Shown here: piece after piece, positions 44,673-52,301 of the stretch | Layout: every line of letters begins with the position of its first letter | How positions within the stretch are numbered: the first letter of the stretch is position 1 | NCBI RefSeq assembly: GCF_026802175.1 | Contig: NZ_CP113797.1 | Location: 4,441,026 to 4,505,025, forward strand | DNA length: 64,000 nt | DNA from: Thermocoleostomius sinensis A174 | Lineage (GTDB): Bacteria; Cyanobacteriota; Cyanobacteriia; Elainellales; Elainellaceae | Direction: 5' to 3' | The notes under the pieces: model-generated | Databases searched by the model: none | What the model saw: the letters and a program-made list of their open reading frames with translations, nothing else | What the model was told of the DNA's origin: nothing | Translations under genes and position numbers: made by a program

Positions 44673-45125
44673 CTAGTCAATAAAGCCCATCAACGTTTCG
44701 CTATCGTCAATTTCGTTTGAAGCGATTGGACGACCACCCGGAAGCAAGCTTGCTTGCAGCAGCGTTGGATCACTCACCACAATCGGACGACCAGCAAAGT
44801 CGCTGCGGACAGTAATTTCACTGGCAAAAATCGGACGATTGCCAGCATAGCTGACAACTTCTAAGGGGCTGGCCAGAATCGGGCGATTATTCAAAATTGT
44901 GCCAAAAACCTCTAAATTACTAGAAGCAATAGGACGCAACCCAGCTACTGCATAGCTGCTGACCTCAATACTGGCTTTTGCTTGATTAGCATTTGCCAGA
45001 GACAATCCCGATTCGGTAGACTTCTTGCTGCCATTATCAGACTTACCGTTTTCGGACTTCGGGGATTGAGTCGAAGCCACCTTGGTCGCTTCACCATTAT
45101 TCGACACTTTCTCTTGATCAGCCAT
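44673..45125 (-). CDS. RPI-repeat protein of unknown function
   Basis: The 150-residue protein has a disordered Ser/Asn/Lys-rich N-terminal half and five copies of a motif centred on RPI: GLRPIASSNLEV, NNRPILASPLEV, GNRPIFASEITV, AGRPIVVSDPTL and GGRPIASNEIDD. They are spaced 18-25 residues apart. There is no signal peptide or membrane segment. AGGAGG lies 5 bases before the ATG at 45125, so it is likely well translated. Similar RPI-repeat proteins occur as hypotheticals in filamentous cyanobacteria. I do not know a function. Confidence 0.82.
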   Translation of the reverse strand: MADQEKVSNNGEATKVASTQSPKSENGKSDNGSKKSTESGLSLANANQAKASIEVSSYAVAGLRPIASSNLEVFGTILNNRPILASPLEVVSYAGNRPIFASEITVRSDFAGRPIVVSDPTLLQASLLPGGRPIASNEIDDSETLMGFID

Positions 45126-45774
45126 CACGTCCTCCTACTTACATCGCATCCGTAACCACTGCATCCATCATCCAATCTGTAGACCTACAGGAAGCTTACG
45201 ACCTCACAACTGAACCGCCTAAATCTTGGGAAACAGCGATCACTGCAACAAGTATGGTATCTATTGAAGCTACCACCCTAGACTACATCAATCACCTACA
45301 TCAATTCCCCAGAATCGTAAACGACTATAACGCCCTCTATAAAATTTGGTTATTGAGTAATGAGGAATCTTAGAAAGAACAAACTATGGGTAACATTATA
45401 GGCGCTAAATGGTCTAGCTCAACCCAGAATAAATGCGAGAAATGATAGGGATCTTTTAAGGGTTCGATTAGATATATTTCATTTCGGTTGATTGAAAAAA
45501 TCTATTGCAATAGATTGCAACATTTTGAAATCTTCTCAAACGTACAAGCTATTGAGAGTGTTTGGCTCGACCGTTAGTTCCATAGGCGGTGAGCGATAGC
45601 AACTGGCAAGAGACGTGGCGATGGCTCTATCTCCTGCGGCGGCATGGCTAAACTTGCTCCATCAGAGTCATAGGAGAGCGTCCTAGGGAGATAGTCCTAG
45701 CACCTTTGAAGATCAAGTGCAGAGCGAGCGGCAGCAACCCTGGGTAAACTTGAGGCGGTCTCTAGGCAGATGAT
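45126..45774. other. Non-coding stretch downstream of the psb32-like gene
   Basis: The left part (about 45340-45550) is AT-rich. The right part (about 45570-45770) is noticeably richer in G+C and contains short self-complementary segments such as TAGGA/TCCTA and CTAGG/CCTAG near 45670-45700. No coding frame or known RNA was recognised. A structured RNA is possible but not shown. Confidence 0.4.
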
Positions 45775-49315: not shown

Positions 49316-51304
49316 ATGAGAAGTTTATTTCTGGAACCCTCGGAAAAGCTTGCCTCTCCTCAAGCAGTCAATGGAAGCTATGACGATATTTTAGTTGTTG
49401 GTCAGCCACTGCTAATCTCTTTAGCTGATTTGGCTCCCAAAAAGGAGGCAAGGGTTCGTCTGAAGGTATGGGGAGAAATCGAGGTTTATTCAGAAGCAAA
49501 TCACCTGATTGACCCGCAAAGCTTGATTTCTGTTCAGGAATTCCCCAGAATTAAGCTTCTAGCTAGAACTTTTAGCGATCGGCCAAACGATCGTTGTTTG
49601 GAAATCACGTTTCAAGATCATGCGAATCATCCCTTGTGCCAAGTTCAACTGAAACTAACTTGCCTTCGGCTTTGTTTAGATGTAGATGCCGATCGCGATG
49701 GAATCGTTGATGACAATCATCCTGGCAAAGGAGAGTGGCACTGGGGCGCGAATGGACACGGCGCGATCTTGATGGTCACGACCGATCGTGATCATGTTCA
49801 TTCTGACAGCCAGTATGACGGACGCATGAACGGGCTTTTGGACCTTAAAGATGCTAGTTTTATGATTATTCGGAGGGTTGGTTTCAAACACCTACCTTCT
49901 GACTACGAAATTTACTTATCTGTTAGTCACGAAACCGCTAAACGAATTTGTATTTATAGCGAGTTAGAAAGAGCAGGCTATGAGCTAATCGGGCCAAGGC
50001 GAGCAAGAGCAAAAATTAGAGAAACCGATCGAGATATTCTCCTAGCCGTGAAGGGATTAAGTTATCCGGATGTGGATTTCAACGGGTTAGTTGAAATCTC
50101 GTTAGATCTGGTAAAAAGTGGAGAAACCATTCATAGCGATCGCGTCGTGTTTCGAGTCGCTCCATGGATGATGACTCCAAACACCTTGTCTCCTATTACT
50201 GTATTTGTGTCTCGACTATCGAAGGGAAAGAACGAAGCATTCATTGAGGATTTAAGAAAAGTCGTCAGCAAAGCAGATGCACAACTTGATCCAGTGCCCT
50301 ATGAGTATCACCACGATGATCCTTGGATGCGAGACGAAATTGAAATTGGATACACTCAAGCCCCAGGAAAGTATATTCACGTTGTTCTAGATTCGCCCCG
50401 CGATCGTGGATTAGATCACCTCACGAAACGGCAACTGATCGGCAGTGATTTTGGGTATGTAATTCGCAAAAGTCGTCATTCGGCTACGAAATTAGATTCC
50501 TTCGGCAATTTAGAAGTTTCTCCACCAGTGACAGTCAAAGGCATTCATTATCCGTTTGGTCGCCTAATCTTTGGTGGAACCCGTCCAGAAATTATCGCAA
50601 ATCCGCGTCGCAAGTTGAAAGTCTTGCGAGATTTCTTCTTTGCTCAAAAAATTCAGGCTCCTATTGAAATCTTCTCTGATTGGCTCAGTGTAGGTCACAT
50701 TGATGAATTTATGAGCTTTGTCCCTGCACCAAATCCTCACGGATTTAAACTCGTTCTTACTAGTCCTGCCAAGTGTTATGACTTGCTGAGAAGGTTGCGC
50801 CACGAAGGTCACGATCGGGCAATCTTGCGGCAGGGAAAGCAGCTTTACAACCAACCTGCCGACATCAGTGTAGCAGAGGTGCTTGACAATGAAGATTTAG
50901 CTCATCATAATCAGCGCTGTCAAGAGCATATCGATTGGAACCGTGAGGTATTGAAACAGGAATTAGGGTTGGACGAAGAAGATATCATCGATTTGCCCAG
51001 CTTGTTTCAACGGGATGAAAACGGACGAGCAGAAACCTTCTTCCCGAACATGGTTAATATGCTCGTTCTCAAGCAACATCTTGCGATTCCCAAGCCCTTT
51101 GGACCTGAAGTAAATGGTCAATGCCAATTTGAAGCGTATGTTAGAGGGGTTTTAGAACCTTTGGGCTTATTCTGTCACTTTATCGATGATTGGGAACCCT
51201 ATTTTCGAGGTGGTGGAGAAATTCATTGTGGAACGAACACTGGCCGACAACCCTTCCCTCAAAAATGGTGGGAGATCGAACCAACATTTTTGGAGTGTTC
51301 CTAA
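49316..51304 (+). CDS. Protein-arginine deiminase (vertebrate PADI type)
   Basis: PAD converts peptidyl-arginine to citrulline in a calcium-dependent reaction. The 662-residue protein matches the family through its middle and catalytic domains. The calcium-binding LDVDADRDGIVDDNHPGKGE is at 121-140. The catalytic Asp is D340 in DDPWMRDEIEIGYTQAP. H461 and D463 lie in DWLSVGHIDEFMSFVP, and the nucleophile C638 in GGGEIHCGTN. SLDSFGNLEVSPPV-type, IIDLPSLF and FFPNMVNMLVL segments are also as in vertebrate PADs. Length equals the human enzymes. Cyanobacterial PADs have been reported and proposed as donors of the animal genes. No signal peptide is seen, so it is probably cytosolic. Targets are unknown. 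Confidence 0.95.
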   Translation: MRSLFLEPSEKLASPQAVNGSYDDILVVGQPLLISLADLAPKKEARVRLKVWGEIEVYSEANHLIDPQSLISVQEFPRIKLLARTFSDRPNDRCLEITFQDHANHPLCQVQLKLTCLRLCLDVDADRDGIVDDNHPGKGEWHWGANGHGAILMVTTDRDHVHSDSQYDGRMNGLLDLKDASFMIIRRVGFKHLPSDYEIYLSVSHETAKRICIYSELERAGYELIGPRRARAKIRETDRDILLAVKGLSYPDVDFNGLVEISLDLVKSGETIHSDRVVFRVAPWMMTPNTLSPITVFVSRLSKGKNEAFIEDLRKVVSKADAQLDPVPYEYHHDDPWMRDEIEIGYTQAPGKYIHVVLDSPRDRGLDHLTKRQLIGSDFGYVIRKSRHSATKLDSFGNLEVSPPVTVKGIHYPFGRLIFGGTRPEIIANPRRKLKVLRDFFFAQKIQAPIEIFSDWLSVGHIDEFMSFVPAPNPHGFKLVLTSPAKCYDLLRRLRHEGHDRAILRQGKQLYNQPADISVAEVLDNEDLAHHNQRCQEHIDWNREVLKQELGLDEEDIIDLPSLFQRDENGRAETFFPNMVNMLVLKQHLAIPKPFGPEVNGQCQFEAYVRGVLEPLGLFCHFIDDWEPYFRGGGEIHCGTNTGRQPFPQKWWEIEPTFLECS

Positions 51305-51342
51305 TTGTTCCTAACTAATTGTTCCTAACTAATTGTTCCTAA
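51301..51342. repeat. Three perfect 14-base tandem repeats between convergent genes
   Basis: CTAATTGTTCCTAA occurs three times head to tail at 51301-51314, 51315-51328 and 51329-51342. The first copy contains the deiminase stop codon and the last contains the stop codon of the convergent oxygenase gene. The repeats fill the whole gap between the two genes. Confidence 0.95.
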
Positions 51343-52301
51343 TAAGTTGCCTGCAAGCGGCTGAGCAAATACTCACCAGAGGTAATGGGGGCATAGCGGG
51401 GTGGGTTGTCTGCGCTTAGACAACTTGGAAAGCAAACAATTTCCGCCTCGGCATCCGGTTGGCAAAAGAAAGCAATCGAATAGCGATCGCGTCTTGCTGC
51501 CTCACCTTGGGGCAAAGCTACCCGATGTTTGGTAGAGCAGAACACATCATTGCTCCAGCGCTGCATCAAATCTCCAGTATTAACGAGAATGGCACCGGGT
51601 ATGGCTGGAGCCGGAACCCAGTCTCCACTGGCAGTTTGCACTTCTAAGCCGCCTACGTCATCTTGAAACAGCAATGTCAATGAACCGTAATCGGAATGAG
51701 CACCCGCTCGAATCTGTCCAGGCTTGGGCACAGCCGCAAGCGGAGGATAATGCAACAGCCGCAAGGTAAAGTCCTGAGTGTGATGCTTCTCGACAATGTA
51801 GAACTCTGGCATGTTAAGGGCGATCGCAAAAGCTTGAAAGAGGCGATTGACTACCACTGCGCACTCGTCAAAAAAATGGCAAATTGTGTTTTTAAACAAA
51901 GGAAGATCCGCTGGCCAACGGTTAACCACCAGTGGCGGATTGACAGATTCCACTTCGGCTTCAGCCCGTTCCTTGCCCACGTTAAAGGCTTCTTTCAAGT
52001 CCCCCGGTTTTGTTTGGTCGAGGTGTTCGCGCTCCATGCCCACATAGCCGCGATTGCTAACTTCATTCGACCAGGCAATTTTCTGCTTAGTAGCAACGGG
52101 TAAGGCAAAAAACGCCCGCGATTGCTCAAAGGTCCGATCGATCACTCCCGGGTCAATGCCATGATGGGTCAAATAAAGAAACCCCACCTGATGACAAGCC
52201 TGATAAATTTCCTGGGCAACTTGGCGTTTGCTTGCCGCATCCCCTTGAACAAACGGGGCAACGTTGATAATGGGCAGCTCGATCGATTCATTCCCTAGCA
52301 T
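51339..52301 (-). CDS. 2-oxoglutarate/Fe(II) oxygenase, isopenicillin N synthase-like
   Basis: The 320-residue protein has the DIOX_N domain (LPIINVAPFVQG, CHQVGFLYLTHHGID) and the catalytic jelly-roll. The iron ligands are HSDYGSLTLL and STKHRVALP (HxD...H), and the 2-oxoglutarate-binding Arg-Ser is in RYSIAFFCQPD. GDLMQRWSNDVF and NRGYVGMERE are family-typical. These enzymes hydroxylate or desaturate small molecules; the nearest described groups act on hormones, nucleobases or antibiotics. The substrate is unknown. The gene is convergent with the deiminase gene and separated only by the 14-base repeats. Confidence 0.92.
   Translation of the reverse strand: MLGNESIELPIINVAPFVQGDAASKRQVAQEIYQACHQVGFLYLTHHGIDPGVIDRTFEQSRAFFALPVATKQKIAWSNEVSNRGYVGMEREHLDQTKPGDLKEAFNVGKERAEAEVESVNPPLVVNRWPADLPLFKNTICHFFDECAVVVNRLFQAFAIALNMPEFYIVEKHHTQDFTLRLLHYPPLAAVPKPGQIRAGAHSDYGSLTLLFQDDVGGLEVQTASGDWVPAPAIPGAILVNTGDLMQRWSNDVFCSTKHRVALPQGEAARRDRYSIAFFCQPDAEAEIVCFPSCLSADNPPRYAPITSGEYLLSRLQATY

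Follow-up and report, generated by a model that had tools for sequence, protein, structure and literature searches.

Does the deiminase gene of Thermocoleostomius sinensis A174 encode an enzyme that works, and is switched by calcium, as the animal protein-arginine deiminases (PADs) are, and how did a cyanobacterium come to carry it? How PADs become active at cellular calcium is an open question in the field, since activation in vitro takes more than 1 mM calcium and cells hold about 100 nM (PMC11555231). The gene was examined in a stretch of 64,000 nucleotides of contig NZ_CP113797.1, called the window from this point on. Coordinates are collected in Table 1.

Table 1. Features of the PAD locus, in window positions
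Feature	Position	Strand	Basis
PAD gene	49316..51304	+	ORF, Pfam, phmmer, tree
Putative degenerate PAD_N, residues 19-117	49370..49666	+	Profile alignment and isolated-domain model; Pfam misses PAD_N
PAD_M domain, residues 118-267, with Ca3, Ca4 and Ca6 ligands	49667..50116	+	Pfam, PADI2 alignment
T155, in place of Ca3 ligand Asn (PADI4 N153)	49778..49780	+	Alignment; role from PMC3559651
PAD_C catalytic domain, residues 272-653	50129..51274	+	Pfam
R339, in place of Ca1 ligand Gln (PADI4 Q349, PADI2 Q350)	50330..50332	+	Alignment; role from PMC5445078
D340, catalytic Asp	50333..50335	+	PADI2 alignment
D378, calcium-switch Asp (PADI2 D389)	50447..50449	+	PADI2 alignment
H461 and D463, catalytic His and Asp	50696..50704	+	PADI2 alignment
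G633; almost every cyanobacterial PAD of the Q type has Arg here	51212..51214	+	Column comparison
C638, catalytic Cys	51227..51229	+	PADI2 alignment
G643; Q-type PADs without exception, and human PADI2, have Arg here	51242..51244	+	Column comparison
Convergent 2OG-Fe(II) oxygenase, PAD neighbour	51339..52301	-	ORF list, Pfam

A complete PAD of the three-domain type

The gene is an intact ORF of 662 codons with an ATG start, and encodes a PAD of the three-domain, clade-Ai type. A first-pass annotation had called a complete, full-length PAD here, and its coordinates proved exact; the ATG is supported because most orthologues begin with M(R/K)xLL. Pfam detects PAD_M (E = 6e-41) and PAD_C (E = 5e-153), both far over cut-off, and a search of NCBIfam returns no matching model. 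Queried with phmmer against solved structures, the protein finds human PADI2 as its best match (E = 3.9e-160, over residues 78-657), and all 27 PDB sequence matches are PAD1-4 and PAD6. The catalytic residues proposed in the first reading are all present: D340, H461, D463 and C638 align with PADI2 D351, H471, D473 and C647, giving PAD_C the Asp, His, Asp, Cys set that defines the class. By analogy with the human enzymes, D340 and D463 would hold an arginine of the target protein while C638, assisted by H461, attacks its guanidinium, and the products would be citrulline and ammonia.

Pfam misses PAD_N here, in line with what Cummings and colleagues reported for clade Ai (PMC8826395). A profile of 25 clade members nevertheless aligns with PADI2 from PADI2 residue 14 onwards. 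When the N-terminal segment is modelled in isolation (mean pLDDT 68), its best 22 structural matches are all PADs; PADI2 is matched over 12-105, and the rmsd to PAD N-domains is about 3.8 Å across about 78 residues, with Z-scores that are modest (up to 4.9) and candidates that are Foldseek's own. This exclusive PAD ranking, in conjunction with the profile alignment, supports the reading of the region as a degenerate PAD_N. Comparison with the nearest relatives gives a dN of about 0.18, a dS of 1.35-1.44, which is close to saturation, and a dN/dS of about 0.13, a ratio that indicates purifying selection on the gene.

Relatives and distribution

In a tree of 52 PADs, the window protein, human PADI2 and the clade-Ai sequences from cyanobacteria group together (SH-aLRT 100), PADI2 being the one animal sequence in the tree and lying on a long branch; the divergent cyanobacterial and actinobacterial PADs stand apart from this clade. 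The term 'vertebrate-type', applied in the first-pass annotation, hides that the class has already been published as a clade of cyanobacteria, one member of which was tested and proved active. That member is the PAD of Cyanothece 8801: the purified enzyme acts on histone H3 and on mouse proteins, citrullinating both, and needs calcium (Cummings 2021, PMC8826395); it is the only cyanobacterial clade-Ai protein for which calcium-dependent activity is described. A literature search for work on cyanobacterial PADs found this single study and a review. Cyanobacterial PADs are known, as had been said, and they are uncommon as well: of 386 cyanobacterial genomes, 25 carry a PAD of any type and eight the clade-Ai type (window genome counted in both), with no genome among the 386 carrying both types.

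Several relatives have unusual architectures. The open frames that hold divergent cyanobacterial PADs (L015-L026) run to about 750-900 codons, more than the PAD_M and PAD_C domains would require. Divergent PAD domains also form the C-terminus of a protein of about 4000 residues with N-terminal repeats in a Verrucomicrobia MAG (L066, 2-12019) and of a 1123-residue protein in a Phycisphaerales MAG (L060, 8288-11656). Five further copies (L048, L052, L057, L059, L067) are split, internally deleted or fragmentary, as assembled, and suggest that cyanobacteria have lost the gene repeatedly.

Calcium sites

The published PADI4 calcium ligands, placed on the alignment of the window protein, comprise Q349, E353 and E411 for Ca1; E351, D369 and N373 for Ca2; and N153, D155, D157, D165, D176 and D179 for Ca3, with D388 in Ca4 (PMC3559651, PMC5445078). 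The window PAD retains the Ca2 ligands and the switch Asp (E341, D359, S360, D363, D378), together with most Ca3, Ca4 and Ca6 ligands. Among the latter is the segment DVDADRDG, rightly singled out earlier as calcium-binding, which the PADI2 alignment identifies as the Ca6 loop. The Ca5 region can be aligned only in part; Ca5 may be dispensable for PADI4 activity. Judging from the conserved ligands, Ca3, Ca4 and Ca6 in PAD_M and Ca2 near the active site would order the cleft in an animal-like manner.

Two ligand sets that are said to be conserved in full in all PADIs are incomplete in the window PAD, Ca1 by a Gln-to-Arg change (R339) and Ca3 by an Asn-to-Thr change (T155). We treat these as variant features, full sets being no requirement for clade-Ai membership. 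The codon for residue 339 is cga, and R339 is not an alignment artefact, because its flanks align without gaps (WMRDEIE in the window versus WIQDEIE). The Ca1 ligands E343 and E400 are invariant. Catalytic contexts had been called 'nearly identical to animal PADs'; this is not true of Ca1, Ca3 and the flanks of the catalytic Cys, because R339, T155 and two Cys-flanking arginines differ. In PADI4, a triple mutant of the Ca1 site has 0.1% efficiency (PMC5445078) and the N153A change cuts kcat to 2% of the wild-type value (PMC3559651). A literature search found no description of PADI4 Arg650 or of a PADI2 Q350A mutant; by their titles, the structure entries 4n2k and 4n2l are of PADI2 Q350A.

An R-type subclade

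Arg at 339 is found in 13 rows of the clade alignment, namely the window, L010, L029-L033, L035-L037, L049, L053 and L148, and in additional loci (L146 and L150-L155, for example), some of which come from the same genomes as the 13 rows. Culturable strains of the R type include Chlorogloeopsis PCC 6912 and Calothrix PCC 7103. The remaining 22 clade rows, like PADI2, have Gln at 339 and Arg at 643. The further columns that distinguish these R-type and Q-type sets almost perfectly include 633 (Cys -5), where Arg becomes Gly, and 643 (Cys +5), where Arg becomes Ser or Gly. The combinations at 339/633/643 are R/G/S in 12 rows, R/G/G in one, Q/R/R in 21 and Q/G/R in one, with Q/L/R in PADI2. In a tree built without the diagnostic columns the R-type rows still form a single clade (SH-aLRT 99). 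This implies a single ancestor in which an Arg entered the Ca1 shell and the two arginines flanking the Cys disappeared; since the three linked changes all lie on one branch, they amount to one historical event. R339 may be functionally coupled to the losses at 633 and 643. The R-type variant of Ca1 is new here; the PAD class itself was already known.

Drift of the calcium network goes further among the closest R-type relatives in the window PAD's group: the switch Asp is replaced by Gln in L032 and Ser in L010, and the Ca3 Asn, Thr in the window, is His in L032. For clade Ai this switch Asp has been described as conserved; in the cyanobacterial PADs L050 and L051 it is Asn.

The Ca1 site would thus have been remodelled in the R-type subclade, with Arg339 replacing Gln, both Glu ligands kept and two arginines beside the Cys gone. 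Around the active site the structure model falls below pLDDT 50 (residues 335-399 and 628-662), so Arg339 cannot be placed in it. Most simply, the guanidinium of Arg339 would lie at the Ca1 position, with E343 and E400 on either side; there it would occupy or weaken the site, and the enzyme would then run without Ca1 or at a different calcium threshold.

Gene neighbourhood

As noted at first pass, the gene converges with that of a genuine 2-oxoglutarate oxygenase and has no substrate gene beside it. The oxygenase was considered as a PAD partner and rejected, being unlinked to PAD in relatives. When ORFs were clustered across 31 clade-Ai loci, generic kinases and synteny among close Calothrix loci were all that recurred next to PAD. 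Between the two genes, positions 51301-51342 hold CTAATTGTTCCTAA, a 14-bp unit in three perfect copies, of which the first lies at the PAD stop codon.

At 44673-45128 (minus strand), a gene without Pfam or NCBIfam match encodes a small protein in which an Arg-Pro-Ile motif (GxRPIxAS-like) recurs five times, and it keeps its order with TPM, DUF3038 and DUF4335 genes in several family members. This protein was rejected as a cognate substrate by association because it is conserved in family genomes that lack PAD. Searches for mobile carriers of PAD returned no match in phage and viral contigs, and in plasmids only divergent actinobacterial PADs, with none of clade Ai. By default, we assume that the natural targets are general proteins; the arginine polymer cyanophycin was also considered as something the enzyme might citrullinate.

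Horizontal history

Only one of 36 genomes of the order, that of the window, has a clade-Ai PAD; one member of the window's family has a PAD of the divergent type. The gene is low in GC (0.446, GC3 0.398) relative to nine neighbours (0.465-0.535, GC3 0.436-0.523). The upstream order of repeat protein, TPM, DUF3038 and DUF4335 is preserved in many family members, and PAD sits at a breakpoint, because in family members PAD and the oxygenase gene do not follow DUF4335. In an RpoB tree the window falls among family members without clade-Ai PAD, whereas the PAD tree joins it with G066 and two Leptolyngbya inside a heterocystous R group. RpoB rejects the clade of these four (p-AU 2e-6) and the PAD data moderately reject monophyly of Nostocales-type PADs (p-AU 0.024), the clades for both tests having been picked after the trees were seen.

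Patchiness, low GC, the breakpoint and the RpoB conflict together argue for a horizontal gain of this PAD and for its spread among cyanobacteria. The cyanobacterial PAD tree has been claimed to mirror the species tree (PMC8826395); the RpoB conflict argues against this. The evidence for lateral spread of PAD among cyanobacteria is new here, and such mobility of three-domain PADs matters for the question of the donor in the transfer from a cyanobacterium to animals that has been proposed.

Alternative explanations

On balance, we lean towards a working three-domain PAD, gained horizontally, in which Arg339 has remodelled the Ca1 site and the dependence on calcium is altered, the last point being inferred from the ligand changes. 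The most serious competitor, which we doubt but regard as a real possibility, is an ordinary calcium-dependent clade-Ai PAD in which Arg339 and its linked changes are neutral and the behaviour is that of the Cyanothece enzyme. Every other Ca1 and Ca2 ligand is retained, so that Ca1 could still be held by E343, E400 and backbone carbonyls; the Gln-to-Arg change may indeed be tolerated because the two Glu ligands and the backbone contacts remain. The Cyanothece relative is moreover strictly calcium-dependent (PMC8826395). Against neutrality, all other clade-Ai members and PADI2 have Gln at 339, the R-type branch also lost its two Cys-flanking arginines, and PADI4 mutants of the Ca1 site are almost dead. 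Because these mutants and N153A are nearly inactive while the lineage is under purifying selection, the R-type lineage has probably compensated for its changed ligands. A bolder version, in which the Arg339 side chain replaces the Ca1 ion in R-type PADs and permits activation at much lower calcium, or with no active-site calcium, is a tentative idea that we think rather improbable as stated.

That the enzyme is weak or dead, serving another role or on its way to loss as its calcium network decays, is unlikely. Ligands have been lost successively in the window's group (T155 in the window; the switch Asp in L032 and L010), and the five split or fragmentary copies point the same way, but the frame is open, the four catalytic residues are intact and dN/dS is about 0.13. 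Dedicated tailoring of a peptide encoded elsewhere in the genome, comparable to the citrulassin lasso peptides of Streptomyces, seems quite unlikely: modification of lasso peptides by PADs has been described in bacteria (PMC12971885), but the 31 loci have no conserved small neighbour gene, and the window PAD is much nearer to the animal protein-modifying PADs than to those of Streptomyces. Finally, PADs share a pentein fold with agmatine and free-arginine deiminases, and this alone favours such an activity. Raised at first pass, it is hardly conceivable for a protein with PAD_M, PAD_C and calcium ligands whose structural matches are exclusively PADs; PPAD, a pentein without PAD_M, is ruled out likewise by the PAD_M domain. 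Returning to the preferred reading of a remodelled Ca1 site, a residue that grips Ca1 has been replaced by Arg in one sub-branch, and calcium switching of PADs therefore becomes testable there: in a lineage whose site naturally holds a charged residue, the role of Ca1 can be tested directly by mutation, in both directions.

Comparison with known PADs

L005, presumably the protein of Cyanothece sp. 8801, is 54% identical to the window PAD and has Q339, R633 and R643, whereas the window has R339, G633 and G643, plus T155. The Cyanothece cyanoPADI, the type example of clade Ai (PMC8826395), is like the window protein in its three domains, catalytic residues, Ca2 and switch Asp. The human enzymes PADI2 and PADI4 (45% identity over 573 aligned residues in the PADI2 alignment) share the catalytic residues, Ca2 and most Ca3, Ca4 and Ca6 ligands, but differ at Ca1 (Gln rather than Arg), at Ca3 (Asn rather than Thr) and in the poorly alignable Ca5 region. 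PADI2 R347, which departs from the active site upon activation (PMC8599989), corresponds to P336 in the window. The divergent cyanobacterial and actinobacterial PADs (e.g. L002-L004, L012-L027, L061-L064) have PAD_C in common with the window PAD, and are 25-32% identical to it in a separate clade. The citrulassin PAD of Streptomyces (PMC12971885) is likewise a bacterial PAD, with a peptide as its substrate; the PADs that the searches located on Streptomyces plasmids show about 28-30% identity to the window protein.
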